The notes under the pieces: generated by a model
Told to the model about the DNA's origin: nothing
The model's input: the letters and a program-made list of their open reading frames with translations, nothing else
The model's database searches: none
Source of the DNA: Phormidium sp. OSCR
Lineage (GTDB): Bacteria > Cyanobacteriota > Cyanobacteriia > Cyanobacteriales > Geitlerinemataceae
Assembly: GCA_001314905.1 (NCBI GenBank)
Contig: LJZT01000042.1
Location: 1-35,992 of the forward strand
Direction: 5' to 3'
DNA: 35,992 bases
Shown: positions 3,281 to 19,321 of the stretch, piece after piece
Position numbering within the stretch: the first letter of the stretch is position 1
Layout: every line of letters begins with the position of its first letter
Program-made: the position numbers and the translations under genes

Positions 3281-5914
3281 TTATATCCAGTTACCAACTA
3301 AGATATACGCTGACCAATAATAGGGAAGTAAAGAACCCTCATTGTTCAATAAACTTAACTGAGCTTGTCGCAAAGCTTCCGCTTTGGTCGTTCCGGGTAT
3401 ACCCAAGTTCTGATAAAAAACTGACATAAATAAAGATGTCGCCGCATCATCTACTTGCCAGAGGGTGGCGAGAGTACTGCGCGCCCCCGCCCGCACAGCA
3501 ACTCCAGCTAAACCCAGGGCGGCACGATCATCACCAGTGGCCGTTTCACAGGCGCTCAGAACTAAAAGTTCTAGAATCTCTGATTCCCCATCCTCGCCTC
3601 GTTGGCGGAGTAGAGTTTCTAACTCCCGCACATTGATGGGGGTATCGTAGGCGAGAATAAACGTATTCTCTGCCTGAGAACTAAATTGTCCATGGGTGGC
3701 AATGTGGATGATAGGGGAGGGGAAGTTGCGAATTTCCTCGGCGATAGAGGTACGGGTAAAGGTGTTGTTGAGCAACTGGCGACTGGAGTTGACTTGAGCG
3801 GAGATCTGTTCTATTTCTCTAGGGACGTGGATGAGAGCCGGAAATCCATGTCTGGCTTCTGATAAACCAGCAGCTAAGGTGGTTAGTCGTTCCCGTGATC
3901 GCTCCCCCGTTTCCAAGAGCTGCATTCCCGGCGTTAGGGCAATGCTGTAGCGTTCAATGAGATACTCGTTTCCGTCATGTAGGGCGGCCATAGGGATATT
4001 CCGTAGTCCGCCATCGAGCACAAAGGTGAGGGTTTCCACGTCACTGTTCTCTAACGGGGCATCTAGGGGGCGAATCAGCCAATCGTAGAGTTGTTGCGAT
4101 TGTTCCAGAACTTCCGAGAGACTAGCAAGACGACGACCCACCTTTTGACGAAAGTTATCTAATTTGCTGTCAATTTTTGATTTAGAAACGGCGGTTTCAT
4201 AAAACTTTAGGGGTTCTCCAGGAAGGGAGAGAATCGTGGTTAGACGGTCAGGCAAAATAATGGAGTAGAGAACCGCTGCATTGGGGTCAATCTCTTCAAT
4301 GGAGACTGGGGTGGTATCTAAACAGGCATCCCGGAAAAAGTTGTCTAATTCAGCTAGTTGTAAATCTTCGATCGCCTCTCGGGCTTGTTGTAAGTTCTTC
4401 TGACTGGGGTTAGGGTCGGACAATAGGATATCCACATATTCCCGATAGACGGTTTCGACGGTTTCTCGGAAGTCATATTGAACTTCGGGGTTCATTGCCA
4501 CTAAGTCACTGCGAATCGATTGCAGGGTGCTTAGGGCGACCCCATAGGCATCCTGAGCGGCTTCGGTTTGTCCTTGGGCGTTGAGTAATCGTCCTAACTG
4601 CCAATGCCAACGATAGGCGATATCTCCGGCATCAATGGACTGGGCCAAGACCACCGCATCACGGGTTAGGGTTTCGGCAATCCCCCACTGTCGGGTGGTT
4701 TCATAGAGAGCGCCTAGGTTGCCGAGGGCGTGGGATTCGGCACGGCGATCGCCAATGTCGCGGGCCTGTTGGACGGCAGTGGCGAGAACTTCGGCCACGT
4801 CACGGGAGTTCTCGCCGAGGGACATGAGATGGCGGGCAAAGCGAACGTGAGCGTAGATGCTGCGGCGACTGGGGGGGACTTGGGTGAGTTGATGGGCGAT
4901 CGCCGTTTTGAGGGTTGAGAGGTCTTGGGGGCTTGGCCAGGGGAGGGTCTCGTCGTCTGAGGGGCGATCTTCGAACAGGGTGAGTTGGTTTAACTGGGCT
5001 TCCAACTGGAGGATGGGATGAGAGGCCAGGCTGGCGGCTCGTTCATAGGCCTGCCAACTGGTCTGTTGTTCCCGCCTAAAGGCTTCGGTATCGAGTGAGT
5101 TGTCCGCCCGTTGCGCGAGACTGCTGGCGGTGTTGCCTAAACTGATATAGATGGAGGCCAGGCTGGCGTCATCTCCCAGGGTTTGGGCAATCTGGAGACT
5201 GCGTTCTAAACGGTCTCGGGCCTCTTGCAACTGACCGATGGCCAGGAAGGTATTACCCAAACTTTGAAATCCCAGGGCTTTGACGAGGGAATCGGGCTGG
5301 TCCTCTAGGGTCCTGGCCACGGTTTCGAGGCGATCGCGGGCGCGGGCATAGAGTCCCAGGGCTTGCAGGGCTTGGGCTTCGTTAATTTGACTGGCGATCG
5401 CCCCCTCGGTATCGTCGGCTTGCTGATAGGTTTGCGTGGCCTGTTGCCAAATTTCAAAGGCCCGTTCCGGCTGTCCTGAGGCTAAATAGAGATGACCCCG
5501 GATATTGAGAATCTGAGCCAAGCGGGCCGGGCTGGTGATGGGTTCGGCGGCCAGGAGTTCCTGGGTGCGATCGTTGACCTGATGGGCTAAGGCCATCTGG
5601 CCGAGCTGTTGGTATCCTAAGCTGAGATAACTGAGAGCCAGGGCTTGCTGGGGGCGATTCCCGTGGCGATCGAACTCCGCCGCCGCCTGTTGCCAGGCCT
5701 CCACCGCCTCCTGATAGCGTTGCCCCTGATAGAACCCGCGTCCCTGTTGTAGCATCTCAAACCCCAACCCGCCCTGGGAACCGTTGCGAGTTGCCGTTTC
5801 CCGGTTGAGAGTGATTGTTGGTAATCCCTCCAGAGATGGCAGTGCTGACTGAGCGGGAACTGTCCAGAAACAGAGGCTAAGTAGAGCCAGGGGAACAGAT
5901 GTGCGATGGGACAT
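3281..5914 (-). CDS. TPR-CHAT domain protein, exported, caspase-like protease fold
   Basis: The 877-residue protein starts with a signal peptide (about residues 1-23, ending A-Q-S-A). It continues with tetratricopeptide-type helical repeats over about residues 50-480 and ends in a CHAT domain (about 600-877). The caspase-like dyad is visible: His741 in HIATHG and Cys789 in LSACETATGD, so the protease site looks intact. CHAT proteins are relatives of separase and caspases. In cyanobacteria they are common beside haemagglutinin-like exoproteins, where a role in processing or surface display is suspected but not established. It lies between two tpsA-like genes with gaps of 29 and 34 bases, strongly suggesting co-transcription. 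The ATG at 5914 gives the signal peptide and is preferred. Confidence 0.9.
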   Translation of the reverse strand: MSHRTSVPLALLSLCFWTVPAQSALPSLEGLPTITLNRETATRNGSQGGLGFEMLQQGRGFYQGQRYQEAVEAWQQAAAEFDRHGNRPQQALALSYLSLGYQQLGQMALAHQVNDRTQELLAAEPITSPARLAQILNIRGHLYLASGQPERAFEIWQQATQTYQQADDTEGAIASQINEAQALQALGLYARARDRLETVARTLEDQPDSLVKALGFQSLGNTFLAIGQLQEARDRLERSLQIAQTLGDDASLASIYISLGNTASSLAQRADNSLDTEAFRREQQTSWQAYERAASLASHPILQLEAQLNQLTLFEDRPSDDETLPWPSPQDLSTLKTAIAHQLTQVPPSRRSIYAHVRFARHLMSLGENSRDVAEVLATAVQQARDIGDRRAESHALGNLGALYETTRQWGIAETLTRDAVVLAQSIDAGDIAYRWHWQLGRLLNAQGQTEAAQDAYGVALSTLQSIRSDLVAMNPEVQYDFRETVETVYREYVDILLSDPNPSQKNLQQAREAIEDLQLAELDNFFRDACLDTTPVSIEEIDPNAAVLYSIILPDRLTTILSLPGEPLKFYETAVSKSKIDSKLDNFRQKVGRRLASLSEVLEQSQQLYDWLIRPLDAPLENSDVETLTFVLDGGLRNIPMAALHDGNEYLIERYSIALTPGMQLLETGERSRERLTTLAAGLSEARHGFPALIHVPREIEQISAQVNSSRQLLNNTFTRTSIAEEIRNFPSPIIHIATHGQFSSQAENTFILAYDTPINVRELETLLRQRGEDGESEILELLVLSACETATGDDRAALGLAGVAVRAGARSTLATLWQVDDAATSLFMSVFYQNLGIPGTTKAEALRQAQLSLLNNEGSLLPYYWSAYILVGNWI

Positions 5915-5943
5915 AAAAATCTAAGATAGAAACCTAAGTCTGT

Positions 5944-8900
5944 TTAAGGCAATAGAGAACAAGAGTTTGCTCGTCTTTCGGGAATAGTGGGGACGACATC
6001 ACCATTGCTAGATGAGAGGATCACCTCACCCTCATGATTCATATGCCAACCCTCGGCTTCCACCAACTCAACCCGCTCATCTCTGGGAACAGACCTGCCT
6101 TGAGACCTCGACAAATTCAGAGAACGTAAATCTACCCAGGTAACATCATTGACAAGTGTCCCCTCAGGGTTGGGAGGTAAGCCACCCCGTCCTGTGACAT
6201 AAAATTCACTGTCTCGTCCGCTGGTACAGGGATCAGTATTGAGAATCGATGCAACATCTATAGGGGCTGCTGAGAGATCCACCAGTCCTGCGGCTGTGTC
6301 AATATCGGGAGTGTTGAGTTCCACAACGCCGCTGAATTCTGGCCCTAGTGCTGACGTTGCAGTGATATCACTTTCAAGAGTGGGTTGATCGCGGAATTCA
6401 GTCCCAAAGATCTCCTGGGCATTGATGATAACTTGTCCCCCTGATGCATTAAGGGCATTGGCGGTAATATTGCTGTTTTCCAAGGCAACCAAGGCCCCCG
6501 TGTCGATGACAATGTTACCTCCGGGAAACTCTCCCTGAGCATTGGTCTGTAGATTACTACCACCTCGCAAAATGGTTGTGTTTGTATTCAATTGGAGATT
6601 CCCACCTTGTCCTAGGGTATCAACTGTAACAGCCGAACCATCTACCAGTCGTAGAGAGTCGGCTCTTACCATGAGATCACCGGCTGCAAAGTTGTTGGAA
6701 TTAGACTGTCCAGTATGACTTGAGGACAAGACTGCCCCATCTTGCAAGTCGATTTGTCTAGCATTTAACCTCACCCCTCCGGCATTGCCCTCGGCTTGAT
6801 CAATCACTTGGCTGAACACAGCACTATTGGAGAGAACGATGTGATCGCGCCCTTCAACTCTAACGCTACCTGCATCCCCTTCTCCAAAGGTACTCGAAGA
6901 TAAGATAGCACCGTCTTGTAGATTGATTTGACGTCCTGTGACCCTGACACCACCGGCATTACCTCGGCCGGTTTCCGTGACATTACTCAACACAAAACTG
7001 TCGGACAACCTCACAGACTCTTGTCCAGTTACTGTCGCCGTTCCCGCATTCCCTTCTCCAGCGGTACTCAAAGACACAAAAGCACCATCTCGGATATCGA
7101 CCCGATTTGCCATCAAGCTTATACCGCCTGCGTTTCCCCGTGCTGCCTCTCCAACCAGACTCACGACTCCGGTGGTCAACTGCCCAACATTAGCTCCTAA
7201 GAGTAGGATACTTTCATTAGCTTCAACCCTAACCGTTCCGGCATCTCCCTGCCCTAAGGTGCTGGAATTTAACTGTGCCCCATTGCGGAGCATAACGCGT
7301 TCTGCAGCGATCTCGATCCCTCCGGCATTACCCCTACCCGTCGGTGCCACCCCACTGATCACCTCACTATCTGAGATCAGAATACTATCGCCAGCTTCAA
7401 GAGTCACGGGACCGGCATTCCCCTCTCCAAACAGATTGGACGATACGACGGATTGCTCTTGTAATTCGATGGTTTGACCGATTAGGCTGAGTCCACCGGC
7501 GTTCCCTCGTCCGCTCGCTTCAACCTGACTAAAGGCATCGGCATTACGGAAGATAACCATCTCATGTCCTTCTACGGTGACGCCCCCAGCATTTCCGTCG
7601 CCGAAGCTACTGGCATCTAGGCGAGCGCCATCCTCAATGATAATCCGGTTGGCAACGAGATCAATTCTCCCTCCATCTCCCTGAGCGCCTTGTGCAACTC
7701 GGCTCAAGGCAGCGCTCATAAAACCCTCAGGGTTAACTCCTGAGAAGACAATCTGATCGGTGGCTTCAACCCTTACGCTTCCACCATGACCCTGACCAAA
7801 CGTACTAGAAGTTAATTGTGCCCCGTCACGTATCTCTACCTGATTGGCGATAAGACTTACCGCTCCAGCGTTGCCCTGCCCAGTTTCCTCGACAGCACTG
7901 AAAGCATCAGCATTGGAAATGATAATGGTCTCCCCCGCTTCAACTCGAACAAGTCCGGCATCTCCTGCGCCAAAGGTCGTTGTATCCAAGGTGGCTCCCT
8001 CCCTCACTGCTATGTGGTTGGCAACCAACCTCACATCACCTCCTTGTCCTTCAGCGGTTTCGCTCACACGGCTAAAGACTCCACTGACTAAACCCAGGGG
8101 ATTAGCTCCTGAAATGATAATACTGTGAACGGCATTAAGCCTGACGCTCCCAGAATTTCCTTGGCCAAAGGTACTTGAGGTTAACTGGGCTCCGTCTCGA
8201 ACTTCGATGTCATTGGCAATGAGGGTAATATTGCCGGAATGGCCGAAAGAATCTCGTCGAACTAAATTCAAGATCCCACCATTGGCTATGCTAATCCTCC
8301 CATGAGCGTCCAACCCAATGTTCCCGGATTGTCCGTCTGGGTTCCCAAATCCTTCGGCAATGCCCGCATCTAAAAAGCTATCCCATAGCTCGATCTCTGA
8401 AGCTTGAATTTTAATATCCCCACCTTGGGAAGCTACTACATTCAAGGCTGTTCCATTTCTCAACAACACCGAAGCGCGATTCAGGTCAGCGGGAACCCCA
8501 AACCCCCCAGACGGAAATCCCGAGTCTGCATCGCCCACCTCAAACCTAACTTGTCCCGCTTCCCCCACTCCCACTAGGTCAATTCGTCCAGCCGGTGCAT
8601 TCATCTCAACATCGTCTAGGCTAATCTCGCCTCCCACCAAGGCCATAGATTCTCCCTCAGAGACGTTGAGCGTTGCCCCGGTTGCCTCAAGGCTGCCGGG
8701 ATTACCATTAAATTGCACCCCTAATGGCACATTCACGCTCAATAGGGGGGCTGTGTCTCCAGAATCACTGGCACTAAACTCCAAGCCATTCTCAAACACA
8801 AGACTGTTGGCGGTACTGGCGACAAAGGAACCGCCGATGTCTAAACGGGCGTTGGGACCGAAAACAATACCGTTGGGATTGAGTAAAAATAAGTTGGCGG

Positions 8901-9216
8901 TTCCGTTGGCCCGCAATAAGCCGTCGATGTCCGAGATTGAGCCGCCGGTGACTCGGCTAAAGATGTTGGCGACATCGGGATTGTTGAAAAAGGCTTCGCT
9001 ATTGGTGGGAACGGAAAACTCCTGGAAACTGTGGAAGAGATTGTCTCCTCGCAAAGCCCCCCCGTCAATTTGTACCCCCGTTTCCATGGGCGTGGTTACG
9101 GAACCTTCTGAGCCTAAGCTACCATCGGGGACAATTTGGGCGTGAACCCGAATCCCTGGCGCGATCGCCACCCCCAGTCCTAGACCCAACACCCATCCCC
9201 ATCTCCGCCTATCCAT
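5944..9216 (-). CDS. Filamentous haemagglutinin-like exoprotein (TpsA type), complete
   Basis: The protein has about 1090 residues from the ATG at 9216; a GTG three codons upstream is less likely because the paralogue starts at the equivalent ATG. A signal peptide ends in V-H-A-Q. The TPS domain follows (FHSFQEFSVP, LFLLNPNGIVFGP), then many beta-helix repeats with GQGNAG, GEGDAG and SSTFGEG motifs. The C-terminus carries a motif typical of cyanobacterial members: a Cys, then FYVTGRGGLPPNP, and the block EAEGWHMNHEGEV. Expected fate is Sec export and passage through a TpsB outer-membrane pore; none is encoded here. It is 22 bases after the DUF928 gene and 29 before the CHAT gene. Its first ~230 residues are nearly the same as the paralogue at 1-3246, indicating gene duplication. 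Confidence 0.93.
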   Translation of the reverse strand: MDRRRWGWVLGLGLGVAIAPGIRVHAQIVPDGSLGSEGSVTTPMETGVQIDGGALRGDNLFHSFQEFSVPTNSEAFFNNPDVANIFSRVTGGSISDIDGLLRANGTANLFLLNPNGIVFGPNARLDIGGSFVASTANSLVFENGLEFSASDSGDTAPLLSVNVPLGVQFNGNPGSLEATGATLNVSEGESMALVGGEISLDDVEMNAPAGRIDLVGVGEAGQVRFEVGDADSGFPSGGFGVPADLNRASVLLRNGTALNVVASQGGDIKIQASEIELWDSFLDAGIAEGFGNPDGQSGNIGLDAHGRISIANGGILNLVRRDSFGHSGNITLIANDIEVRDGAQLTSSTFGQGNSGSVRLNAVHSIIISGANPLGLVSGVFSRVSETAEGQGGDVRLVANHIAVREGATLDTTTFGAGDAGLVRVEAGETIIISNADAFSAVEETGQGNAGAVSLIANQVEIRDGAQLTSSTFGQGHGGSVRVEATDQIVFSGVNPEGFMSAALSRVAQGAQGDGGRIDLVANRIIIEDGARLDASSFGDGNAGGVTVEGHEMVIFRNADAFSQVEASGRGNAGGLSLIGQTIELQEQSVVSSNLFGEGNAGPVTLEAGDSILISDSEVISGVAPTGRGNAGGIEIAAERVMLRNGAQLNSSTLGQGDAGTVRVEANESILLLGANVGQLTTGVVSLVGEAARGNAGGISLMANRVDIRDGAFVSLSTAGEGNAGTATVTGQESVRLSDSFVLSNVTETGRGNAGGVRVTGRQINLQDGAILSSSTFGEGDAGSVRVEGRDHIVLSNSAVFSQVIDQAEGNAGGVRLNARQIDLQDGAVLSSSHTGQSNSNNFAAGDLMVRADSLRLVDGSAVTVDTLGQGGNLQLNTNTTILRGGSNLQTNAQGEFPGGNIVIDTGALVALENSNITANALNASGGQVIINAQEIFGTEFRDQPTLESDITATSALGPEFSGVVELNTPDIDTAAGLVDLSAAPIDVASILNTDPCTSGRDSEFYVTGRGGLPPNPEGTLVNDVTWVDLRSLNLSRSQGRSVPRDERVELVEAEGWHMNHEGEVILSSSNGDVVPTIPERRANSCSLLP
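7822..8190 (-). repeat. 123-codon module in the second haemagglutinin gene
   Basis: The segment encoding AQLTSSTFGQGN is followed 369 bases further along the gene by AQLTSSTFGQGH (plus-strand anchors 8181 and 7812). The module is a 65-residue block plus a 58-residue block. The period is identical to that in the paralogue, so the 123-codon unit probably predates the duplication. Confidence 0.75.
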
Positions 9217-9238
9217 AACACCCACCCCAACTTAACTA

Positions 9239-10036
9239 TCAGTTCACGAGAGAAAATTCCGAAAATTCAGCCAACCCGGCGGATTCTAAAAAATCTTGCC
9301 AACGCTGTTGTAGCTGTGGGTCATCAGGAGTCGCCTGTCTCTGATGTGCCAGGCCCGAGAGGGACTCATACCAAATGCCATTTTGACCGTAAACTAGCGG
9401 GCGATCGCGCTCCGGTTGCTGCTGCAATTGATCGATTAGGCTGGGGGTGGGTTCAACCCGACGCACCCAACCTTGAGCCACCACTTCTCGCGGCGCACCG
9501 GTTCCATCGGGGGGACAGATGACGGCAAACTGCCAGCGGTAATCTTCTTCTAATGCCAACTCCTCAACGGTGTCCGGTAATTGCAGTTCCAGGATGCCCG
9601 ATTCAGGTAACGCCACCTCCTGACGGTAGATGTCATTCCATTGGCGATCGCGCACCACAAACAGCCCCTCAGAGGCCACGGTTTCCGGGACATAAACCCA
9701 AAACGTCGGACGAGGTGACACCGTGAAGGCCCAGTCCCTCGCATCTGGGGTGACTCTAGGAACTAACACTGTTAGAGGAGGGTTCGGCTGTAACGCATCT
9801 TGGGGACATTTCCCTCGCGTTCCTGCTGCATCGACGACATCACCTTCAGGCGCTCCGCGATCAGGTGGGTCAAAACGGGCGACGGTGTCGGACGCGACTG
9901 GATTTAACTGTTTCTGGATCTGATGGGGTTGGGGCGATCGCCCGGAATTGCCCTCGACGACTCTAGGAACTAGATTTCCTAATAGTCCCGCCTCCAACCA
10001 ACCGGTAGCCAGAAAAACCAATAATGCAGGAGTCAT
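9239..10036 (-). CDS. DUF928 domain protein
   Basis: The recognisable part is a DUF928 domain, about residues 85-210 of this form. It has the family landmarks PRPTFWVYVP, a pattern of short beta strands, LPDTVEELALEEDYRWQF, a Cys-Pro, and a closing GWVRRV. DUF928 proteins are cyanobacterial proteins of unknown function, usually next to CHAT and haemagglutinin genes and often with a signal peptide. The start is uncertain. ATG 10036 gives a hydrophobic N-terminus (MTPALLVFLATGW); GTG 10123 adds 29 residues, including another hydrophobic stretch. No strong ribosome-binding site decides it. It is the first gene of the operon that continues through both exoproteins and the CHAT protein, 22 bases before the next ATG. 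Confidence 0.85.
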   Translation of the reverse strand: MTPALLVFLATGWLEAGLLGNLVPRVVEGNSGRSPQPHQIQKQLNPVASDTVARFDPPDRGAPEGDVVDAAGTRGKCPQDALQPNPPLTVLVPRVTPDARDWAFTVSPRPTFWVYVPETVASEGLFVVRDRQWNDIYRQEVALPESGILELQLPDTVEELALEEDYRWQFAVICPPDGTGAPREVVAQGWVRRVEPTPSLIDQLQQQPERDRPLVYGQNGIWYESLSGLAHQRQATPDDPQLQQRWQDFLESAGLAEFSEFSLVN

Positions 10037-10123
10037 GAGCTGGATTTTAAAAAACAACAATACCCCGTTGCAATGGTGATGAAAAACCATCAACCAGGGG
10101 ATTTCAACCGGGATCAAGTCCAC

Positions 10124-10506
10124 CGAAGAGCATTCAAGTTGATTTTGTTGCTCAAGGGATGATGCACTGCGTCGAGCGGGGATGCACCCAGATGTATCTT
10201 ATCGTCAAGCCGTTACCCAAGGCTGGGCTAGATTCCTATGGTAATTCCGTAATTATACTGAATTTGATTCTCAGTGTCAGATCGGATGCCAATCGCTCAG
10301 GGATTGCCCCGATGTCAAGCCCTTTTCCGCCTATTATTAAGATTTGCAACTTAGTCAATCTTCATCAAGGGTCTAGTGCAAGCCAGAGCGGATGGAGCGT
10401 TGGCTTGGGTCCCCAATAAACTCAATCTGAGCCTCTACCATATTTTATTTTAATTGTCAAGTCTTTAGAGACAACAATTCCAGCCTGGCGGCTGGGTTCT
10501 GGGAAA
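10124..10506. other. Intergenic region, no convincing gene
   Basis: This 383-base gap separates the DUF928-led operon from the nuclease-ended operon upstream; both are on the minus strand. Short open frames here have no recognisable protein features. It should hold the promoter of the DUF928 operon, but I cannot point to secure -10/-35 boxes. A short direct repeat of GTAATT occurs around 10240-10254. The right end holds a hairpin (10480-10495). Confidence 0.5.
10452..10495 (-). terminator. Candidate terminator after the DUF1802-nuclease gene
   Basis: On the minus strand a 6-bp stem CCAGCC / GGCTGG with a 4-base loop starts 12 bases after the stop at 10507. It is followed by the T-containing stretch AATTGTTGTCTCT and then an AT-rich tract. 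A second, looser AATTGT/ACAATT inverted repeat lies beyond it. The T-run is weak, so intrinsic termination is plausible rather than certain. Confidence 0.45.
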
Positions 10507-12015
10507 TCACAGACTCAAGTCTCGGATGACCGAAAAGCAATCCTGCCGCCAGTCGCCTTTTTTCTCCCGTCGAATATAGCCAGTTAAGGGGGACGACAGT
10601 TCAATTAACAGCTCATAAATTCCCTGCTCTCCTAACTGATTGAGATATTTATAGTCATCATCAATAAATTTCAGTGAAAACACAAAATTACCAACCGTCA
10701 TCGAGCTTGAGTTAGCTGTATCAATAGCAACCTTGAGCGCCGAAATAATATCGGCTCGCTGTTTAATTCGTGCTTGCAGCTCTTGGATATAGTTTTCTAG
10801 TTGACGATCCGCCTCTTCCCCAAAGGGCGCAGCATTCAGATTTTCCTTTAACTCCTGTAAATCCACAGAACCGGGATAGTTGGCTTGGAGTTTTATCAAG
10901 GTTTCTAGGGTTTCGGGGCGTAACACATTCATTTCATTTCCTCGGGCAACTTGGTCAGCATCTGGGGTCAGTTTTCCGGCTGCAAAAATCACTTTAACAC
11001 AGCGTTCATATAGGCTTCCGGCATACTCCCCATCGGCGACATTTAGGTACTTTTGACCAAGTTTAATCAGTTGGGCGGGGGTGCTGTCGGGAACGCGATC
11101 GCCTTGGCTGGCTTTGCACTCTCCCACCAGGGGATAGGGAGACTCGCAATAGACATCTAAGCCACCTGCACCCCCAGTCTGATCGGGATTGAGGCTGGCT
11201 TTGGGGTTCTGTTCGGAATTGCGAAAGCCGAGTTTCAGGAGGGCGCGACGCACCAGTTTTTCAAATTCATAGCCGTCACTGGAGTTCCCGACTTCGCTGA
11301 TGCGTTCAATCCAGTCTAAGTCAGGATCGCGGCGGGGTAAAAGGGAGGTTTTAGTGGTGTTGTCTAAGCCGCGCCACTGTTGCTGAAATTGCTGAATCGC
11401 CGCCTCAAGACTCGGTTGGGAAATGGCGAGTTGGCGCAGTTGTCGTTGTAGGGAGTCGAGGGGTTGGCGTTTCCGTAAATCCTGATGGTACTCCTCAAAC
11501 TGGCGATCGCCCAAAACGGGATTCTCTTGGCGTAACGTTAGGGTTTCGGGTAAGCCTAAGAACTGACGAGGTTCCCGAGGGGTGGCCCCTTGAGACATCA
11601 CCAGGGGTTCGGGAAGTCGGTACACGCGCAAATAGGCTAAAAACAAGGTCGGACGTTGCGCGAGAATGTGGTTAAACATCTCTGTGGTCCAAATGCTACT
11701 CTCGGATAGGGCCGCTAAATCTGAGTCGGCGTTGAGAATTTCGCAGTCTTCACATACCGCCCAAGCGGGTATGATGAGAGTCTTCTCGTCTAAATCAACT
11801 CTCTCGGTGGCTAATACATCTTGATGATAGAGATACTTCTCGGGACCATCGGAGAAGGTTTGACTGACACAGAGGCCAAACTGCTGTTGTTTAGGGCGCA
11901 CAAATCGAGGGGCGATCGCCACAATACTCACCCCCTGCAAGAGGTTGGCCATCTCCAGAGGGGGGAGACTCAACGCTTGAAAGATAACGGATGTATTGGG
12001 AGATGTATTGGACAT
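10507..12015 (-). CDS. DUF1802 fused to a PD-(D/E)XK (Mrr-like) nuclease
   Basis: The 502-residue protein has two recognisable parts. Residues ~10-145 match DUF1802, a cyanobacterial domain of unknown function: FQALSLPPL, IIPAWAVCEDCEI, SSIWTTEMF and FLAYLRVYRLPEPL. Residues ~248-370 look like a restriction-endonuclease fold: GYEFEKLVRRALLKLGF (Glu250/252), then GLDVY (Asp287) and GECK (Glu299, Lys301). This gives the E...D-x11-ExK pattern with all catalytic residues present. A helical region (~400-435) and a C-terminal region without a known domain follow. Expected role: metal-dependent DNA cleavage, with DUF1802 perhaps for partner or target recognition (inference). It is last of four co-directed genes, 85 bases after the ATPase gene. 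Stand-alone DUF1802 proteins are usually much shorter, so the fusion is notable. Confidence 0.82.
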   Translation of the reverse strand: MSNTSPNTSVIFQALSLPPLEMANLLQGVSIVAIAPRFVRPKQQQFGLCVSQTFSDGPEKYLYHQDVLATERVDLDEKTLIIPAWAVCEDCEILNADSDLAALSESSIWTTEMFNHILAQRPTLFLAYLRVYRLPEPLVMSQGATPREPRQFLGLPETLTLRQENPVLGDRQFEEYHQDLRKRQPLDSLQRQLRQLAISQPSLEAAIQQFQQQWRGLDNTTKTSLLPRRDPDLDWIERISEVGNSSDGYEFEKLVRRALLKLGFRNSEQNPKASLNPDQTGGAGGLDVYCESPYPLVGECKASQGDRVPDSTPAQLIKLGQKYLNVADGEYAGSLYERCVKVIFAAGKLTPDADQVARGNEMNVLRPETLETLIKLQANYPGSVDLQELKENLNAAPFGEEADRQLENYIQELQARIKQRADIISALKVAIDTANSSSMTVGNFVFSLKFIDDDYKYLNQLGEQGIYELLIELSSPLTGYIRREKKGDWRQDCFSVIRDLSL

Positions 12016-12100
12016 CGACAGTAAGACAAAACAGATTCAACGTAGCCTAATTAAAAGGGTCTTCAGGATTGGGGATGTTTTGCCCCTACTACTCGCTCAT

Positions 12101-13969
12101 CTAAGCCTCATCACTGTCTGCATCTTCATCCACCACATCTTCAGGTTTTTGACCTGAAGGACGGCTAACAATCTTCCGAAGCAAGGGATTATCAATCAGG
12201 AGATTTTCCGCTTCGATAAACTCTTGCAGTTGCGCCTCGTCAATCTCGTAATCGTCCAAAGATTCAGAGATTTCTAACAGTGCCAGTAAAGGCTTGATGG
12301 GTTCAGCTTTTAGGGAGACCCATTTTCCTCCCTTTTCTTGCAATAGTTGGTCGCGGAAAGACTGGGCTTTTTGAGCCGAACGGCTAATATCCTTGGAACG
12401 CACTAAACAGCCCCGAGTAATCCCATAACTATCATAATCAACCAACCGTTTTAAGCCGGCTTGTACGCCGCGACCTCCAGACATTTGCAAGACCATAACA
12501 CCAATTTTAACGGACTCATTAGTTTGTTGTCCGATGATTCGGAAATCCAAGCAATACCGGGCTTCGGAAGCCGGGGTGTTAATGCCTTCAACTGCCTCAA
12601 TCTCAAAATCTCCCAGATTTTTTTTTAGTTTTATCAGAAATTGGTAGGCAAATTTCAGAGCTTTGGCAAGTCTGGATTTATCCTCTAGCCGCTCTTCCAT
12701 ATCCAAGTTAGCCAATTCTTTCTCAAAAATAGGCTTGAGCGTAGTAGTAATAGGAGGAGGAGGAGGAGTTTCCTCAACCTTAACCTCAGCTTCAGGAGCA
12801 TCAGGAATGCCCCAATGAGACTTACAATGTTGTAAGACATCCCGAGCGGTAGCCCGTTGTCGGCCAATGGCTTCAAGAGCTTCTTGTTTGAAGGGATAGA
12901 TTGATGTTGGGGGCGTTAATCCCCGCTGCTCATAAAACTGCTTGAGCCAATCTTGCACTAAGTCAACAACATTTTTTGAGTTTAAATAGTTCAGATCAAC
13001 CCGAGTTTCCCCAATGCGATCTACGACCGCTTCCGCTTGAGGTAAGGACTTAATTTGATGTTGCCAAATATCAGGATACAGGGCCGTCAGAATAACACCT
13101 TTGTTGAGAGCGTTATAGAGGTCCATGGCTAGGGTGACAATGACTTGTGCCTTGCTAAAGCCACTGTCTGACATTTCTGTTCCTTCGAGCTGATCAAAGC
13201 AAATCAAAATTGGATTATATTGACTAATCAAATCTAAAATCTGGCAGGAACGCTCAAACTCATCCATTTGATCATCTTCCTCCTGTTCCGGTAATCCCAT
13301 CATGTCACTGTCTCTCGACGAAATTCCTTTTCCCGAAATCCAGCGGATGGCTTGCAGTGCTTTGATACGATCTAACGTCCAGAGAATACTACGGATGAGA
13401 TAGGGATCACTATTATCGATTCCGTTATCAAGTTGACAGTTGCTCACCTCACTAGCTAACTCGTCAATCAAATCAGGCTCGGTTTTTATCCTAGCTTTAA
13501 TCTCCTGCATCCAGTCTTTCGCAGAGCAGCTTTGCTTGAGGGCTTCGTTGAGCAAATCGGCCGCCAGTTCTTGCCATTGCATGACCTCTTGACTGCCGGT
13601 TTGCCGTAAACTTTGGCAGAGGATATTGAGAAATTCTGGCTTAATGTGGTTGAGATTGTTATAATCTCCCATATAGATAAACCAGGCTCCACCACTGCTT
13701 TGCAGATGATGGCGGATTCTGCCGACAATATGACTTTTACCGAGACCTTTTTCAGCGACTAAGCTTACTCCTGCGACGTTGCGTTTGCCTTGAGAAATAT
13801 CGGCGAGGGCGCGAAATACTGTATCAGAGGCTTCGGCATTGATACTGGGAACGTCGATAAATTCACCGTTCCAAACGGCTTGTCGTTTGATGATTAACTC
13901 CCGGTTAAAGGGGTTGTCTTGTTGAATGGCGGCCTGGAGATCATTGAGGGGGGAAACGGAATCTGCCAT
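12101..13969 (-). CDS. P-loop ATPase of a candidate defence/DNA-processing operon
   Basis: A 622-residue protein with an AAA/STAND-like ATPase core. Walker A is AEKGLGKSH (~72-80) and Walker B is ILICFDQLEG (~254-262, Asp259; Gln260 where Glu is more usual). A helical region with RATARDVLQHCK (~372-383) may be a lid or winged-helix part. A Pro-rich linker (~401-407) leads to a C-terminal domain (~410-565) with alternating strands and helices (YCLDFRII, VKIGVMVLQMSGG) that could be a degenerate nuclease-like fold; this is a weak inference. The tail is acidic. Overall it resembles large ATPases of phage-defence loci more than replication or repair ATPases, but I do not recognise the family. It sits 75 bases after the small gene and 85 before the nuclease gene, all on one strand. 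Confidence 0.8.
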   Translation of the reverse strand: MADSVSPLNDLQAAIQQDNPFNRELIIKRQAVWNGEFIDVPSINAEASDTVFRALADISQGKRNVAGVSLVAEKGLGKSHIVGRIRHHLQSSGGAWFIYMGDYNNLNHIKPEFLNILCQSLRQTGSQEVMQWQELAADLLNEALKQSCSAKDWMQEIKARIKTEPDLIDELASEVSNCQLDNGIDNSDPYLIRSILWTLDRIKALQAIRWISGKGISSRDSDMMGLPEQEEDDQMDEFERSCQILDLISQYNPILICFDQLEGTEMSDSGFSKAQVIVTLAMDLYNALNKGVILTALYPDIWQHQIKSLPQAEAVVDRIGETRVDLNYLNSKNVVDLVQDWLKQFYEQRGLTPPTSIYPFKQEALEAIGRQRATARDVLQHCKSHWGIPDAPEAEVKVEETPPPPPITTTLKPIFEKELANLDMEERLEDKSRLAKALKFAYQFLIKLKKNLGDFEIEAVEGINTPASEARYCLDFRIIGQQTNESVKIGVMVLQMSGGRGVQAGLKRLVDYDSYGITRGCLVRSKDISRSAQKAQSFRDQLLQEKGGKWVSLKAEPIKPLLALLEISESLDDYEIDEAQLQEFIEAENLLIDNPLLRKIVSRPSGQKPEDVVDEDADSDEA

Positions 13970-14044
13970 GAGAGATCTAAACGGGTTGAGTCGTACTACT
14001 TAGGGGGAAAAGTCGGGTAGAGTGATGGCAATTGATGGATAAAC

Positions 14045-14689
14045 TTAAAGCCGCTTGGCGTAGCAGCGGAGTCCACTGAGTTCTGTGGTGATGGAATCGG
14101 CCAAGCTTTCGGGATTGGACTGATTAGCGGGTAAACTGCCTCCTTGAAGTTGCAAGATGTCCTCTGCTTGCATTTCCAGCATCCAGTCGTCAAACTGAGA
14201 GCGGCTGACGCGATCGCCCAAACTCCGACGAATCTGATAAATTGGCACTAAATGGTCTAAATGATACTCTTTGTTTAGACGATCATAGACCTCTAACGCT
14301 GCGGTTTTAAAGGCATCATAAGAGAGAATTGCTTTCTCAGTGGTTTTGGGAACAGCGGTGGTAGCGGCTTGACGATGCCATTGCAAGAGTGCATTGGCTA
14401 AGCGACTGCTGACAATACTGCCGGGGAAGCTAAAACTGGCATCATTTAAGCCGTCTTGCAGGATGTTTAAGCCGCGATCGCCCAAACGAACGCGAAATGA
14501 CTGACCCGCTTTCTCCGTTGCAATGGCTTTTTGCTCTACCAAGTCCTCAAAAATAGGGTCGAAGTCTCCCGATTTCTCCGCAGACCGCTTGACTTTTTGG
14601 AGTAATTTTCCCTTGGGAATACTGTCCTCCCCAGAAGCCCAAAGCATTAACAGTAAGCGGGTTTTAGCATCCGGTTTTTGTAGCCCCAT
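14045..14689 (-). CDS. Small protein with probable winged-helix N-terminus, unknown function
   Basis: I do not recognise the 214-residue protein by name. Residues ~8-85 have the helix spacing and final beta-wing of a winged helix: RLLLMLWASG, PKGKLLQKV, FEDLVEQKAIATEKAG, FRVRLGDRGLNIL. Residues ~123-212 (YDAFKTAALEVYDRLNKEY, HLVPIYQIRRSLGDRVSR, FDDWMLEMQAEDILQLQGG, SGLRCYAKRL) form a second helical domain that also resembles a winged helix. It may be a DNA-binding or adaptor subunit linking the helicase to the ATPase; this rests on position only. It lies 193 bases after the helicase gene and 75 before the ATPase gene. The ATG at 14689 is preceded by a weak GAGGAAA. Confidence 0.75.
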   Translation of the reverse strand: MGLQKPDAKTRLLLMLWASGEDSIPKGKLLQKVKRSAEKSGDFDPIFEDLVEQKAIATEKAGQSFRVRLGDRGLNILQDGLNDASFSFPGSIVSSRLANALLQWHRQAATTAVPKTTEKAILSYDAFKTAALEVYDRLNKEYHLDHLVPIYQIRRSLGDRVSRSQFDDWMLEMQAEDILQLQGGSLPANQSNPESLADSITTELSGLRCYAKRL

Positions 14690-14882
14690 TCTTGGTTTTT
14701 CCTCGAATTATTTAATAAACTGTTTAGCAAAATGCTCTCTAATCCACTCTACTATAAAAAAGCTAACTCGGCTAGTATTTAACTCCTCTTTAATATAAGT
14801 TCATGCTCTTAACGATTGACCTCACAAATCGCTTCTCTCGTCAAGCGCCAATTGGGGAAGTTCCTATCCAATTGCCAATCCA
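14690..14882. other. AT-rich gap inside the candidate operon
   Basis: This is the longest gap in the four-gene block. Near the helicase stop it has an inverted repeat CAATTGG / CCAATTG (14849-14855 and 14868-14874, 12-base loop). Minus-strand AT-rich stretches such as TTTTTTATAGT (around 14750-14760) could serve as an internal promoter. The downstream three genes may therefore be separately transcribed; this is uncertain. Confidence 0.4.
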
Positions 14883-17800
14883 CTACAACCCTGGACGAAT
14901 GCAGATGCGTTGACGCTTGTCTAAACCCGACAGCACAACCTCCACTCGCGGATTCCCCCCCCGATACACCAGTCGCCCGACGCAGACCGGCTCCAGACGA
15001 AACAGCAAGCTATTACCATCATCGGTGTAAATTGTCAAGTCCTGGCGACGAATCAGTCCCCCCTTGCGGGTGAGTTTGACGAATACGCTGTCCCCCCCCT
15101 CCCGAGCACGTAACGTCACCTGTAACGATTTGCGGGTTTGGACGGCTTCGACTGACACTCCCCCTAAGACAAACTGCGCCCCGTTACCGTGACGTTGCAA
15201 CAGCACGCGTTCGGGTAATCCTTCAACTTGCACTGTTCCCGGTAGCCGGGTGGGTTCAGCGGGTTGGGGTTGCGGGGGAATGCGCGTTGCATCTAATTGC
15301 CATTGCTGGCCCTTGCGTTGAATTTCGGCGCGAATCGCCTCGGCCCGTTGGGGGCTAGTTCCCTCGGCGAACTGTTGTTGCTTTAACTTGGTGGCTAACC
15401 AGCGTCGTTGGGCGTAACGTCGCCAATGAGGACTGAGATCCGGCGTCTCCAACAACTGTTCATAAAAGCTGAGACAGGGAACCCACTCCCCCACTCGTTC
15501 AAAACTAGCCCCCACTTCCGCTGGGGTGAGATGACGGGGCCAGGTTTCCTGCGCAATTACCCGCTGGAGAAACTCTACATACTGACGACGTTGGGGGCGG
15601 GTGTCGTCGGGGCTGAGGTTGGAGGTGGCCAGTTGACGCACCACTTCCCAGGTGAGGGCTTGACAGTCGGGGCCTTGGCAGCGATCGAGGCTGGCGATCG
15701 CCTCCAACCAACGACGGGCCTGCAAGAGATACTGCACCAAATCATCCCAGCGCTGTTCGAGTTCTAAGGCCCAACGGATACCATCGAGTTGTTTCAGCCA
15801 GTTGGCTTTCCCCGGTTTCCCGGCCTGTTCCCAACGATCGACAATCTGTTTATAGGCTTCGGCTTGTCGCAGATAGGGAATCCCCTCAGGAAATCCCACC
15901 TGTTGGGCTTTGGCTAAATAATAATCCCGATGTTCGGTGTCGCCGCAGGCCTCCCAACAATCCACGGCGCGACGGCGGTTTTCTGGAGTTTGGGCGGCGT
16001 AAAAACAGCAGCCGGCGCTATGTAGCAATTGAGGATATTTGGCTTGGGCCAGTCGTTCCAAGGAATCGCCATACTGTTGCCATTCTCTGGGGGTTAGGGT
16101 TTCTTTGGCGTTAAGGAACTCTTGGATGGTGTCTCGGTAGGCCTGGATGGCCATGCGCCAGGGTTTTTCGGTGTAATGGCGTTGGGCCTGGTGGATGTGG
16201 TTGTCTAGCTGTTGGCTAAACTCTCGCAGTTGGGTGAGTGAGGCCGGTTGACTTGCCATAAATTCCGCGATCGCCCTCTCAATAGCCGAACCCCGATGCT
16301 GTTGATACCAATCCCACAGTTGCGGCCAACATAACCCTTGCCAAAAACAAGTCCGGGCCTCGTCAGGCTGATTTAAGGCTAAAAAGCGTTCTCCGGCGGC
16401 CTGAAAGTCTCGTTCAAATTTCAAGGCCCAGGCCTGAGACATCTCGGCCTTGTCGTACGCATTCAGAGAACGGTAGAAGTCGGCGGCGCGATAGAGAAAT
16501 TCAGGATTTTCTTGACTTAAGCCGTTTTCCCAAAACTGTTCGGCTTGTTCGAGGCGATTGTCGCGGTTAAAGATGGCGAAACTCTCCCCCCTGGGCAAAA
16601 AGCTAATTTGGGCCGCATCTTGGGCTTCGAGTTGGCTGGCGTTGATGGCGCGATCGCATCCCTCTTGATTGGCAAATCGCCATAACGCCTGGTCCCCCGC
16701 CGGAGAGTCTAAAATCACTAAGGCTTCGGTAGGCCGACTGGCCGCCACATAGAGTTTATTGAAGAAATATTCCAGTTCTAAGTTGCGTTGCTGAGCGCGA
16801 TAGAGTTTGTTGAGATTCGTTTGTCCTTGGGCGAGTTCTTCTCCGAAGTTATAGAGAATGACAAAGGGAAACTCCAATCCCTTGGCTTGACTGGCACTGA
16901 GGATATTTTTGGGGACTTTACCTTGCTGAATTTCGGGAAAGAGATCCCGCAGCAGTTCATCCTGTTGCAGATAATTTAATTCTCCCCCTTCTTCACAGGG
17001 AATGAGAATAATCGGGTCATTTTGGCATTGTTCCCGAAATTGAGCGGCTTGCAAGTTCTCGGAGAGGATGAATTTTTGTGGGGGAATCCCGTTTCCCGGT
17101 TTCCAAGGCACTTGTAAGGTCAGTTGATGACTTTTGAAAAACAAATAGCGCCAGAGAAGAATCAGGTTAGTTAGCCGCACGATCGCCCCTAGGGAACGAT
17201 AGTTCGATTTCAGTTCATGGAAGGTCATCTGAAGTTTCAGATGGCGATCGGGATCTAAACTGGCAATCACCTGTTCATAAAAGGCCGCCCGCACACTTTT
17301 CCAGCGAAAGCCGGTGGGATTGAGGGTTTGTAATGGATCTCCGGCGAAGGCGAAGGGTAAACTGGCAACGGGGGGATAGAGTTCGTAATCGGTGAAAATG
17401 GAAAGTTGCACCAATAGCCGTAGTTCTAATTTGGTGAAATCTTGGGCTTCATCAAAGACAAGGGCGCTATATTTTTGGCTGATGTTACCCTGTTTTAGAA
17501 CTGCTCGGATTAAGTCTTGGTCATCCCAATAGTGATTTGATTTTAAGTAGTTTTTATACCAGGGATAGACGCGATCGCAGACAAACTTAAAGCTTTCTTC
17601 TGGAACGGTGCGTTCTCCCCGAGGAATATCTGAATAATCCTCAGCCGCCATATCTTCTAAATTATAGCCCTTAATAAAGGCCCGAATAATATGCCAACAT
17701 TCCGCTGGAGACAGTTGCCCCGGAAAGGAGGATTGATAGGCTCGTTCAAATTGATAAAAGGCGATATGTTTATCGGACTCAAACTTTTCTAAAGTCTCAG

Positions 17801-19031
17801 AATCCAATCGACTCAATAGAAAATCCTGAAATGGTGTAAAAAATTCTTCAAACTCGTTAATTTTAGTAGATTTATCCGCAAAACGATGATGGTGATCCAG
17901 CAGTTTTTTAACTCCCTGACGTGCTGATTGAAGTAGGCGTTTATTGTAGGTAATAAACAGAGGATGAACGGCCAAGGCTGTATCGGAAACATCCGGGTTA
18001 TGTTCGCGGATATCAATATATTTTTGGCAATAATAGGCAAATAAATAAAACAACATCGTGGATTTGCCACTTCCCGCCCGACCATTGATAAAAATAGGCA
18101 ATTTCCCAGATTCTAGGATGCTTTCTTCTTCCAAAGAAAGGGCAAAATTCCCTTCCGCTTCTCGCTCGATTTCATACCAAATATCGGGGTCAAGCAGTAA
18201 ATAACGAGGATAATAGCGGAGAGAATATTGGGCGATGTCGTTGCGGGAGAGGGAATGGGTGAGGCGATTCTCCAATCCAGGGCCATATAAATTCAGAGAG
18301 GCCCCGATGTTTTGAATATCTTGTAAACTGGGGCGTTTGTCAAAGGGAGAAATCAAGAGAATTGCCAAATTTCCCGGACTATCAGTTGCTTCAATTCGCG
18401 AAAAAAGAATTGCTTTTTGGCGGGTTTTGTGGTAACACCATGATAGTCCCTCATAGGGCGTTGACTGTTCTTGAAGTGCTGCATTCGAGTCTCGTTCAAT
18501 CAGACCATACACCAACTCATGATAGGTTTGCCAATGACGGTCAATTTCGACGGTTTTAAATTGTTCGACCCAGATACGAGTTTCATAAATGGCTCCCCCT
18601 TGGCTATCCATGAGCAAACTGGGTTTTTGCAGCCATTCTTTTAAATGTGCTGGCAGATATTTCGGCTGTTGTTCGGCGGTTAGATCCTCTTTTTGATGTT
18701 GAATTTCACGCTCGATATCGAGGATATTGAGCTTGAAGTGAGTTGTGCCATACTGGTCAGGATTATCCAAAAAATGATGTTCATAATCTGGCTGACCCCG
18801 TTGAAAGATTTTCAGGAAGCAGAAAACTCGGTCGTTGCCGACTTTTTGGATTTTGCCAATCAGACGTAAGTTATCGAAGCGATGTTTGAGATAGGGATAA
18901 TTCCAATCGAAGTGACTTTGAATGCCAGTGGTACCATGGGTTTGAATCGAAGCCCTGAGAGTGTTTAATTTATCGAGTTTATTGTAATTTCTAGCTTCAG
19001 TTATGCAGCTTGGGCTAATATAAACAAACAT
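14883..19031 (-). CDS. UvrD/Rep-like SF1 helicase with long N- and C-terminal extensions
   Basis: The 1382-residue protein carries the SF1A helicase motifs in order: Walker A GRAGSGKST (~317-325), motif II DEAQD (~527-531), motif III FAGDPLQTL (~562-570), SNYRS (~609-613), motif V LSASQAKGLEFPFVILYN (~711-728) and motif VI VAASRP (~762-767). The ~300 residues before the core have no domain I can name; RLIGKIQKVGNDRVFCFLKIF (split at 57-70 and 71-76) recalls small RelE-like folds, weakly. After ~790 there are about 450 residues of Trp-rich helical repeats (TPR/clathrin-like), then a beta-rich C-terminal ~130 residues. Ordinary UvrD/Rep proteins are ~650-750 residues, so this is not housekeeping UvrD. 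The ATG at 19031 is preferred over the TTG at 19124, whose extra 31 residues look non-coding. It is first gene of the minus-strand block, divergent from fbp. Confidence 0.85.
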   Translation of the reverse strand: MFVYISPSCITEARNYNKLDKLNTLRASIQTHGTTGIQSHFDWNYPYLKHRFDNLRLIGKIQKVGNDRVFCFLKIFQRGQPDYEHHFLDNPDQYGTTHFKLNILDIEREIQHQKEDLTAEQQPKYLPAHLKEWLQKPSLLMDSQGGAIYETRIWVEQFKTVEIDRHWQTYHELVYGLIERDSNAALQEQSTPYEGLSWCYHKTRQKAILFSRIEATDSPGNLAILLISPFDKRPSLQDIQNIGASLNLYGPGLENRLTHSLSRNDIAQYSLRYYPRYLLLDPDIWYEIEREAEGNFALSLEEESILESGKLPIFINGRAGSGKSTMLFYLFAYYCQKYIDIREHNPDVSDTALAVHPLFITYNKRLLQSARQGVKKLLDHHHRFADKSTKINEFEEFFTPFQDFLLSRLDSETLEKFESDKHIAFYQFERAYQSSFPGQLSPAECWHIIRAFIKGYNLEDMAAEDYSDIPRGERTVPEESFKFVCDRVYPWYKNYLKSNHYWDDQDLIRAVLKQGNISQKYSALVFDEAQDFTKLELRLLVQLSIFTDYELYPPVASLPFAFAGDPLQTLNPTGFRWKSVRAAFYEQVIASLDPDRHLKLQMTFHELKSNYRSLGAIVRLTNLILLWRYLFFKSHQLTLQVPWKPGNGIPPQKFILSENLQAAQFREQCQNDPIILIPCEEGGELNYLQQDELLRDLFPEIQQGKVPKNILSASQAKGLEFPFVILYNFGEELAQGQTNLNKLYRAQQRNLELEYFFNKLYVAASRPTEALVILDSPAGDQALWRFANQEGCDRAINASQLEAQDAAQISFLPRGESFAIFNRDNRLEQAEQFWENGLSQENPEFLYRAADFYRSLNAYDKAEMSQAWALKFERDFQAAGERFLALNQPDEARTCFWQGLCWPQLWDWYQQHRGSAIERAIAEFMASQPASLTQLREFSQQLDNHIHQAQRHYTEKPWRMAIQAYRDTIQEFLNAKETLTPREWQQYGDSLERLAQAKYPQLLHSAGCCFYAAQTPENRRRAVDCWEACGDTEHRDYYLAKAQQVGFPEGIPYLRQAEAYKQIVDRWEQAGKPGKANWLKQLDGIRWALELEQRWDDLVQYLLQARRWLEAIASLDRCQGPDCQALTWEVVRQLATSNLSPDDTRPQRRQYVEFLQRVIAQETWPRHLTPAEVGASFERVGEWVPCLSFYEQLLETPDLSPHWRRYAQRRWLATKLKQQQFAEGTSPQRAEAIRAEIQRKGQQWQLDATRIPPQPQPAEPTRLPGTVQVEGLPERVLLQRHGNGAQFVLGGVSVEAVQTRKSLQVTLRAREGGDSVFVKLTRKGGLIRRQDLTIYTDDGNSLLFRLEPVCVGRLVYRGGNPRVEVVLSGLDKRQRICIRPGL

Positions 19032-19321
19032 GGCAGCAGTATCTCGGCAGTTGGGCAGGTTTAGGAGAGTATTCTGGGGATAAATGAGAGGGTGAGGTGG
19101 AGGTTTTCGGGCAACAGACTCCAAGCCGCTAACTCCTTAACCTCCTATTATATGGAATATAAATCGAAGTTTAATCTAAAGAAAATCTATAGTCCCTGCC
19201 AAATGCGTAACAACTCGGAGAAGTGGTTTTACCATAGGAGCAAGGTACACTCATCCCAGGGTGCGATCGCCCAACCTCCCGAGTCCCTCACCGACATGAA
19301 CATCCTAGATAGGAACCCTTT
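19032..19321. promoter_or_regulatory. Divergent intergenic region, helicase operon and fbp
   Basis: This 290-base region must carry promoters for the minus-strand helicase gene and the plus-strand fbp gene. The centre (19140-19190) is AT-rich, and a HIP1-like GCGATCGC lies at about 19263. I cannot assign reliable -10/-35 boxes. Confidence 0.4.

Follow-up and report, generated by a model that had tools for sequence, protein, structure and literature searches.

A three-gene ATPase-nuclease module, sporadic among cyanobacteria and probably a modification-sensing restriction system, in Phormidium sp. OSCR

Results

Genes at the locus

The DNA considered here (the window) is a stretch of 35,992 nucleotides from the cyanobacterium Phormidium sp. 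OSCR (assembly GCA_001314905.1, contig LJZT01000042.1, positions 1 to 35,992), and our subject is a group of neighboring genes at positions 10507-19124. Four consecutive open reading frames (ORFs), all on the minus strand, encode proteins of 502, 622, 214 and 1413 amino acids (aa): a nuclease with a DUF1802 domain, an AAA+ ATPase, a winged-helix-like protein and a superfamily 1 (SF1) helicase. A sequence-only reading had combined the four into a single anti-phage system; its account of four consecutive minus-strand genes is borne out by the ORFs, but the unit is composed of three genes, encoding the winged helix-turn-helix (wHTH) protein, the ATPase and the restriction endonuclease (REase), which form a real module, and the helicase next to them appears to be a separate gene.

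In Pfam, the nuclease matches DUF1802 (E 6.8e-20), the ATPase matches AAA_16 below the cut-off, the UvrD matches of the helicase fall just under the curated cut-offs, and the 214-aa protein has no match. The ATPase also weakly matches the NCBIfam family Sll1717 (E 6.8e-5, under the cut-off), on which the literature searched held nothing. A scan for promoters and terminators gave numbers at chance level (7 promoter-like sequences against 5.8 expected, and 8 terminator-like sequences against 5.7).

Conservation of the three genes

Scanning GTDB with an alignment of the nuclease, we followed the best 80 of 206 relatives to 79 loci, whose record titles are cyanobacterial throughout; the tie of DUF1802 to cyanobacteria that had been suggested holds for every relative among these matches. 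The wHTH, ATPase and REase genes occur together and in that order in 74 of the 79 loci, with a median spacing of 2 bases between ATPase and REase, and in four of the other five the first gene present is cut by, or at, a contig end. The protein distances of the three families are correlated (Mantel r 0.50-0.70; the highest value in permutations was 0.28). The loci share no constant fourth family: the commonest neighbor family, a 528-aa protein that by eye we take to be glucose-6-phosphate isomerase, is found in 28 of them, and the commonest within 1.5 kb of the module, a 99-aa protein, in 18. In a phylum-wide sample of 291 cyanobacterial genomes (115 genera), every one of the 42 REase-bearing genomes has the wHTH gene too, on the same contig and a few kb away in 40 and on a separate contig in 2.

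A further comparison covered 19 whole genomes, those of the strain and its relatives, seven of which belong to the genus. Outside the genus, the trio is found in order in G007, G012, G013, G014 and G016; the ATPase ORF is interrupted in G007 and G012, and G013 has two ATPase ORFs. Split ATPase ORFs are also seen at several other loci (for example, L079, L095, L098, L102 and L119), and may reflect decay or sequencing error.

The helicase as a separable neighbor

The helicase carries the SF1 motifs expected from the sequence-only reading (GRAGSGKS, FDEAQD, GDPLQ, NYRS, SQAKGLE and YVAASR), the length of 1382 residues given there being that from the ATG listed in Table 1. No helicase homologue was found in any of the 79 loci, nor among the ORFs of the stretches examined around the trio in the five non-genus genomes named above. 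Within the genus, the helicase is present in all seven genomes (interrupted in G005); four of them have closely similar wHTH and ATPase genes, and three the REase. G003 has its ATPase at a contig end, and no REase was found there. Three genus members, G002, G004 and G005, keep the helicase without the trio, and in G002 and G005 the DUF928 gene directly follows the helicase. The helicase is present in 17 of the 291 genomes, seven of which also hold the module, and the two are adjacent in just two genus members. The four genes are thus rarely found together, the helicase adjoining the trio in this genus only, and the proposed four-gene system is not supported. The helicase, about 1400 aa in length and itself sporadic in cyanobacteria, has a long C-terminal part past the helicase motifs and may be an independent accessory system.

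Predicted folds and conserved residues

Alignments were made from 60 modules, taken from the 65 that passed length filters among 78 complete ones. The residues of the Mrr-like nuclease site, E252, D287, E299 and K301, are invariant in all 60 homologues, as are F251 and C300, which agrees with the intact PD-(D/E)XK site noted earlier; DUF1802 is matched by all 60 and Mrr_cat by 38. In a Foldseek search with the AlphaFold model of the nuclease (pLDDT 86.1, pTM 0.65), the top 11 matches are ASCH domains, those of a Zymomonas ASCH protein and of human TRIP4; the best of them has E 7.4e-3, prob 1.00 and TMt 0.57. Entries for the origin recognition complex (ORC) come next. ASCH domains have a PUA-like fold and can read modified bases. 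Because residues 8-180 form the sole comparable beta-rich domain of the model, we assign these matches to DUF1802, which is predicted to be ASCH-like and is probably a reader of modified bases. One published study notes a prediction that some ASCH domains bind modified bases (PMC7641849). DUF1802 is named by a single paper in the literature searched, which merely lists it, and does not occur in the main text of PMC10853773; no printed link between DUF1802 and ASCH was seen there.

The P-loop of the ATPase, noted in the sequence-only reading, is intact. With its AlphaFold model (pLDDT 90.0), Foldseek ranks Cdc6 first (1fnn, E 1.2e-4), then BrxC (9zll_B, E 1.2e-4), with ORC close behind; since whole-query TM-scores are low (0.2-0.3), it is the ranking that places the modeled ATPase near Cdc6/ORC and BrxC. 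Residues 425-555 follow a REase-like order of strands and helices and have no E-x-K motif, with Gln495 in its place in 56 of the 60 homologues. An hhalign comparison of this domain with the active REase domain showed no sequence match (0.2%), and from the model we regard it as a probable inactive REase-like domain. Genomes of the family also carry, among ordinary genes, an ATPase paralogue that is more distant and has 636-638 aa.

The 214-aa protein can be called winged-helix-like, as in the sequence-only reading, on no more than weak profile matches (13 of 60 homologues match SelB-wing_2, at a best E of 0.0025). Some matches span just about residues 6-92 or 108-216, suggesting a protein of two parts. 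Nothing was found when its winged-helix stretches were aligned with each other by hhalign, and searches of solved-structure sequences with the three 60-row profiles gave nothing below E 0.01; a search for the DptG family TIGR03236 matched no genome, controls included, and so says nothing.

Sister systems with other effectors

Distant relatives of the wHTH and ATPase form sister trios with FtsK translocase proteins in G002, G009, G016 and G017. Such arrangements were seen at loci L034, L037, L038, L039 and L040, of which L039 begins at a contig edge. The FtsK proteins also carry a DEDD exonuclease and a PD-(D/E)XK domain (a protein kinase instead in G017), and in the four scanned the FtsK part matches SspH (E 5e-62 to 2e-64). 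By hhalign, module and sister families are related in the wHTH (97.0%, E 9e-11) and in the ATPase (99.7%, E 2.4e-26), and the module nuclease is unrelated to the sister FtsK-nuclease (0.5%). The strain itself has a sister-type ATPase and FtsK-nuclease at the edge of its contig 123.

Two further arrangements were seen. On contig 114 of the same genome (L033:5473-10573), a wHTH gene is accompanied by a tandem pair of AAA+ ATPases (682 and 688 aa), and no effector was identified beside them. In G141 (L128:5657-9876), the neighbor of a full-length wHTH homologue is, in place of ATPase and REase, an SNF2-type helicase of 1097 aa that also gives a weak PLD-like match.

Distribution, loss and duplication

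The REase was found in 42 of the 291 genomes and 24 of the 115 genera, and it is patchy within genera; this is the sporadic distribution anticipated for a defense system, and the module is not universally conserved. The wHTH profile matches 48 genomes, six of them without a REase call: G141, G144 (a partial wHTH and ATPase at a contig end), G114 (where the wHTH belongs to a sister system) and about three fragments, those in G139 and G253 comprising about 90 N-terminal residues. In G292 a relic consists of an N-terminal wHTH piece and, about 1 kb away, a C-terminal REase piece; the 528-aa neighbor gene near it also accompanies the intact module in G037.

At the DNA level, near-clean empty sites were identified in G002 and G005, where homology to the window ends at 14878 and 14884 and resumes at 10349 and 10346, respectively, with 21 (G002) and 32 (G005) bases between the flanks. 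G004 keeps a REase relic of 96 nt (33 residues). Conversely, two complete modules are present in 4 of the 79 loci and more than one REase ORF in eight. Between G000 and G001, nucleotide identity is 97.4% for the wHTH gene, 96.9% for the ATPase and 98.7% for the REase, and in the flanks 91.2% for the helicase, 93.8% for DUF928 and 96.0% for fbp.

Beside modules or relics at L124:2739-3430, L125:3475-4172 and L130:3002-5236 there are recurrent pairs of ORFs of about 105-140 aa and 120 aa; the 120-aa member looks by eye like a small aspartic-protease family. The features of the window are collected in Table 1. Downstream of the module, positions 3281-10123 encode CHAT-TPR, two-partner-secretion (TPS) and DUF928 proteins.

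Table 1. Positions of the module genes, their predicted domains and the adjacent helicase gene in the window.
Feature	Coordinates	Strand	Basis or remark
Gene 1, winged-helix-like protein, probable DNA-recognition subunit, 214 aa	14045..14689	-	sister wHTH homology, weak profile matches
Gene 2, AAA+ ATPase near ORC/Cdc6/BrxC group, 622 aa	12101..13969	-	model pLDDT 90.0, Foldseek, residues
Gene 2, AAA+ core, about residues 45-400	12770..13837	-	DSSP of model; AAA_16 in 58/60 homologues
Gene 2, C-terminal alpha/beta domain, about residues 425-555	12305..12697	-	probable inactive REase-like, from helix/strand order
Gene 3, DUF1802 nuclease, 502 aa	10507..12015	-	Pfam, model pLDDT 86.1, Foldseek, residues
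Gene 3, architecture			DUF1802/ASCH-like domain, Mrr-like PD-(D/E)XK domain, helical C-terminal part with possible wing at end
Gene 3, DUF1802 domain, about residues 8-180, predicted ASCH/PUA-like fold	11476..11994	-	Foldseek
Gene 3, Mrr-like PD-(D/E)XK nuclease domain, about residues 233-380	10876..11319	-	residues 60/60; Mrr_cat 38/60
Trio-bearing 4.5-kb segment, missing from G002 and G005	10350..14877	.	DNA comparison of flanks
Neighbor outside the unit, SF1 UvrD-like helicase, 1413 aa (1382 from ATG at 19031)	14883..19124	-	

Discussion

A probable restriction module

Taken together, our analysis makes it probable that the trio is a self-contained, ATP-dependent restriction module that senses DNA modification. 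The wHTH protein and the ORC/Cdc6-type ATPase would assemble on DNA and choose or scan the target; the ASCH-like DUF1802 domain would read the DNA, with a modified base as the most likely signal; and the Mrr-like PD-(D/E)XK domain would cut, probably only once licensed by the ATPase complex. Such a logic would resemble that of McrBC and be type IV-like, except that here reader and nuclease are parts of one protein. We propose a role in defense because of the sporadic presence, loss and duplication of the module, its kinship to SspH-like systems and a published prediction (discussed below). The anti-phage character suggested by the sequence-only reading survives in this form, a sporadic operon of nuclease, ATPase and DNA-binding protein being best read as anti-invader, with foreign DNA as the presumed target and the wHTH protein presumably setting specificity; membership of the helicase does not survive.

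Several observations weigh against this interpretation. NSF, p97 and FtsH score nearly as high as ORC/Cdc6 in the ATPase search. The Walker B motif of the window ATPase reads FDQLE, with Gln (Q260) at the usual Glu position; in the alignment this position is Glu in 56 of 60 sequences and Gln in four (including the window), the next acidic residue being kept, and genus mates G001 and G003 share the Gln. To judge from the sequence, the substitution may slow hydrolysis and possibly makes the protein a slow or non-hydrolysing ATPase. None of the ASCH matches of the nuclease model falls below E 0.001, a YqfB amidohydrolase is among its structural matches, and ASCH domains can also bind RNA or act enzymatically. 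At L053, a locus whose contig is long, no wHTH gene could be detected. No match was found on plasmids (REase), in phages (ATPase) or on viral contigs (REase), which is evidence neither way. The neighbors are largely ordinary chromosomal genes, and in many Nostocales the sites of the module recur, as they might after long vertical inheritance. Proximity to other defense genes, which the sequence-only reading had proposed as a check, is indicated at most by a weak excess of matches to PADLOC families: 65 among 135 neighbors against 14 among 71 controls, counted as families, not proteins (first 25 families only; the 135 come from 258 neighbor proteins that deduplication left of 467, and the 71 are all the controls that it left of 96, drawn from helicase and core-ATPase loci).

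Alternative explanations

The same chromosomal setting bears on the leading alternative, an accessory replication-repair or housekeeping complex of filamentous cyanobacteria in which an ORC-like loader works with a repair nuclease. An ORC/Cdc6-like ATPase, chromosomal and recurring sites (such as those marked by the 528-aa neighbor family) and the distant ATPase paralogue among ordinary genes would all suit it, but the restriction of the module to 42 of 291 cyanobacteria, its patchiness inside genera, and the clean absences, relics and tandem copies argue otherwise, and we hold this explanation to be unlikely.

Next in order, and also improbable in our view, is an abortive or toxin-like module, in which a triggered ATPase-wHTH sensor turns the nuclease on the host chromosome and invaders are not cut selectively. 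Passages of a recent survey describe ORC/Cdc6-STAND ATPases as frequent sensors of suicide systems (PMC10853773), and no protection of the host is visible here, as the module has no cognate methyltransferase. The fusion of an ASCH-like reader to the nuclease, however, suggests that discrimination takes place on the DNA itself.

We consider it very unlikely that the trio is a mobile element or its relic and not a defense system. Published relatives have been termed mobile gene neighborhoods (PMC10853773), an empty site is near-clean, and the trio has a higher identity between G000 and G001 than most flanks, fbp excepted; nevertheless, no recombinase or transposase recurs beside the module in the 79 loci, and by eye there is no target-site duplication at the junction. 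Least credible of all is a four-gene system whose helicase unwinds foreign DNA for the nuclease: the helicase and the trio are adjacent and co-directional in the window, G001, G003 and G006, and 7 of 17 helicase genomes hold the module against 2.5 expected if independent (clustered in few lineages), but the helicase is absent from every one of the 79 loci and from 35 of 42 module genomes, stands without the trio in three genus members, is either on a different contig or 0.24 Mb away in the five non-genus genomes that have both, and is separated from the wHTH gene by 193 bases in the window.

Implications

The restriction module that we favor would be a compact and widespread example (4.5 kb, three genes) of a predicted counter-invader class, and the Pfam family DUF1802, so far unannotated, would gain a probable fold (ASCH) and a probable role (reader of modified bases). 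If the interpretation is correct, cyanobacteria bearing the module should restrict DNA according to its modification, which would matter for the ecology of cyanophages and for the transformation of filamentous cyanobacteria. More tentatively, the module and its sister systems could be versions of one exchangeable cyanobacterial targeting platform, directed against modified or replicating cyanophage DNA, in which a fast-changing wHTH protein and an ORC/Cdc6-type ATPase are combined with swapped DNA-destroying effectors: the DUF1802/ASCH-REase, the exonuclease-PD-(D/E)XK-FtsK protein or, in one genome and with the wHTH alone, a PLD-like/SF2-helicase protein.

Comparison with known systems

The sequence-only reading found no match among known systems, and in PADLOC-DB 2.0.0 the four proteins indeed have only background matches (GajB, Nhi, mad8 and JetA, E 0.007-0.15), so that no known PADLOC system was accepted. 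Gabija, Hachiman and Zorya share the general theme of helicase, ATPase and nuclease; the sub-threshold GajB match (E 0.0085) belongs to the helicase, outside the unit. BREX is brought to mind by BrxC, the second Foldseek match of the ATPase, but none of the four ORFs matches PglZ or a methyltransferase, and the module has no conserved fourth gene. McrBC and type IV restriction combine an AAA+ motor, a PD-(D/E)XK nuclease and a modified-base reader in a unit without a methyltransferase; the module differs in the clade of its ATPase, in the fusion of reader to nuclease and in having an additional winged-helix-like subunit. DndFGH and SspFGH rely on a DndH/SspH-type HerA/FtsK protein that the module does not have (0 of 79 loci), and no Dnd or Ssp match was obtained in PADLOC. 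Closer are the HerA/FtsK capture systems with Orc/Cdc6 ATPases, since related genomes carry homologous wHTH and ATPase genes beside FtsK/DEDD exonuclease/PD-(D/E)XK proteins, yet the module has no FtsK: among the ORFs of the 79 loci, none has the FtsK-nuclease profile as its best match.

The closest counterpart comes from Rakesh, Aravind & Krishnan (2024; PMC10853773, section 22), who in a single sentence predict a counter-invader operon consisting of an Orc/Cdc6 ATPase, an ASCH-REase and a DndG-like triple-wHTH protein; parts of a 2026 survey of BREX repeat the theme (PMC12839542). The literature searched held no experimental study of this class. Shared with the module are the ORC/Cdc6-like AAA+ ATPase, the active REase fused to an ASCH-like domain, a separate winged-helix-like protein in the same operon and the absence of a HerA/FtsK partner; two or three of the five published features agree and none disagrees, the families being presumably the same. 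The published description also places an inactive REase domain after the AAA+ core of the ATPase and ahead of a C-terminal wHTH; residues 425-555 may correspond to it by their order of helices and strands and their lack of E-x-K, and for the triple wHTH the 214-aa protein offers weak winged-helix matches. The claim that nothing known matches therefore gives way to a fit with a predicted operon type, and the three-gene module is most likely a member of the predicted Orc/Cdc6-ASCH-REase-wHTH class.

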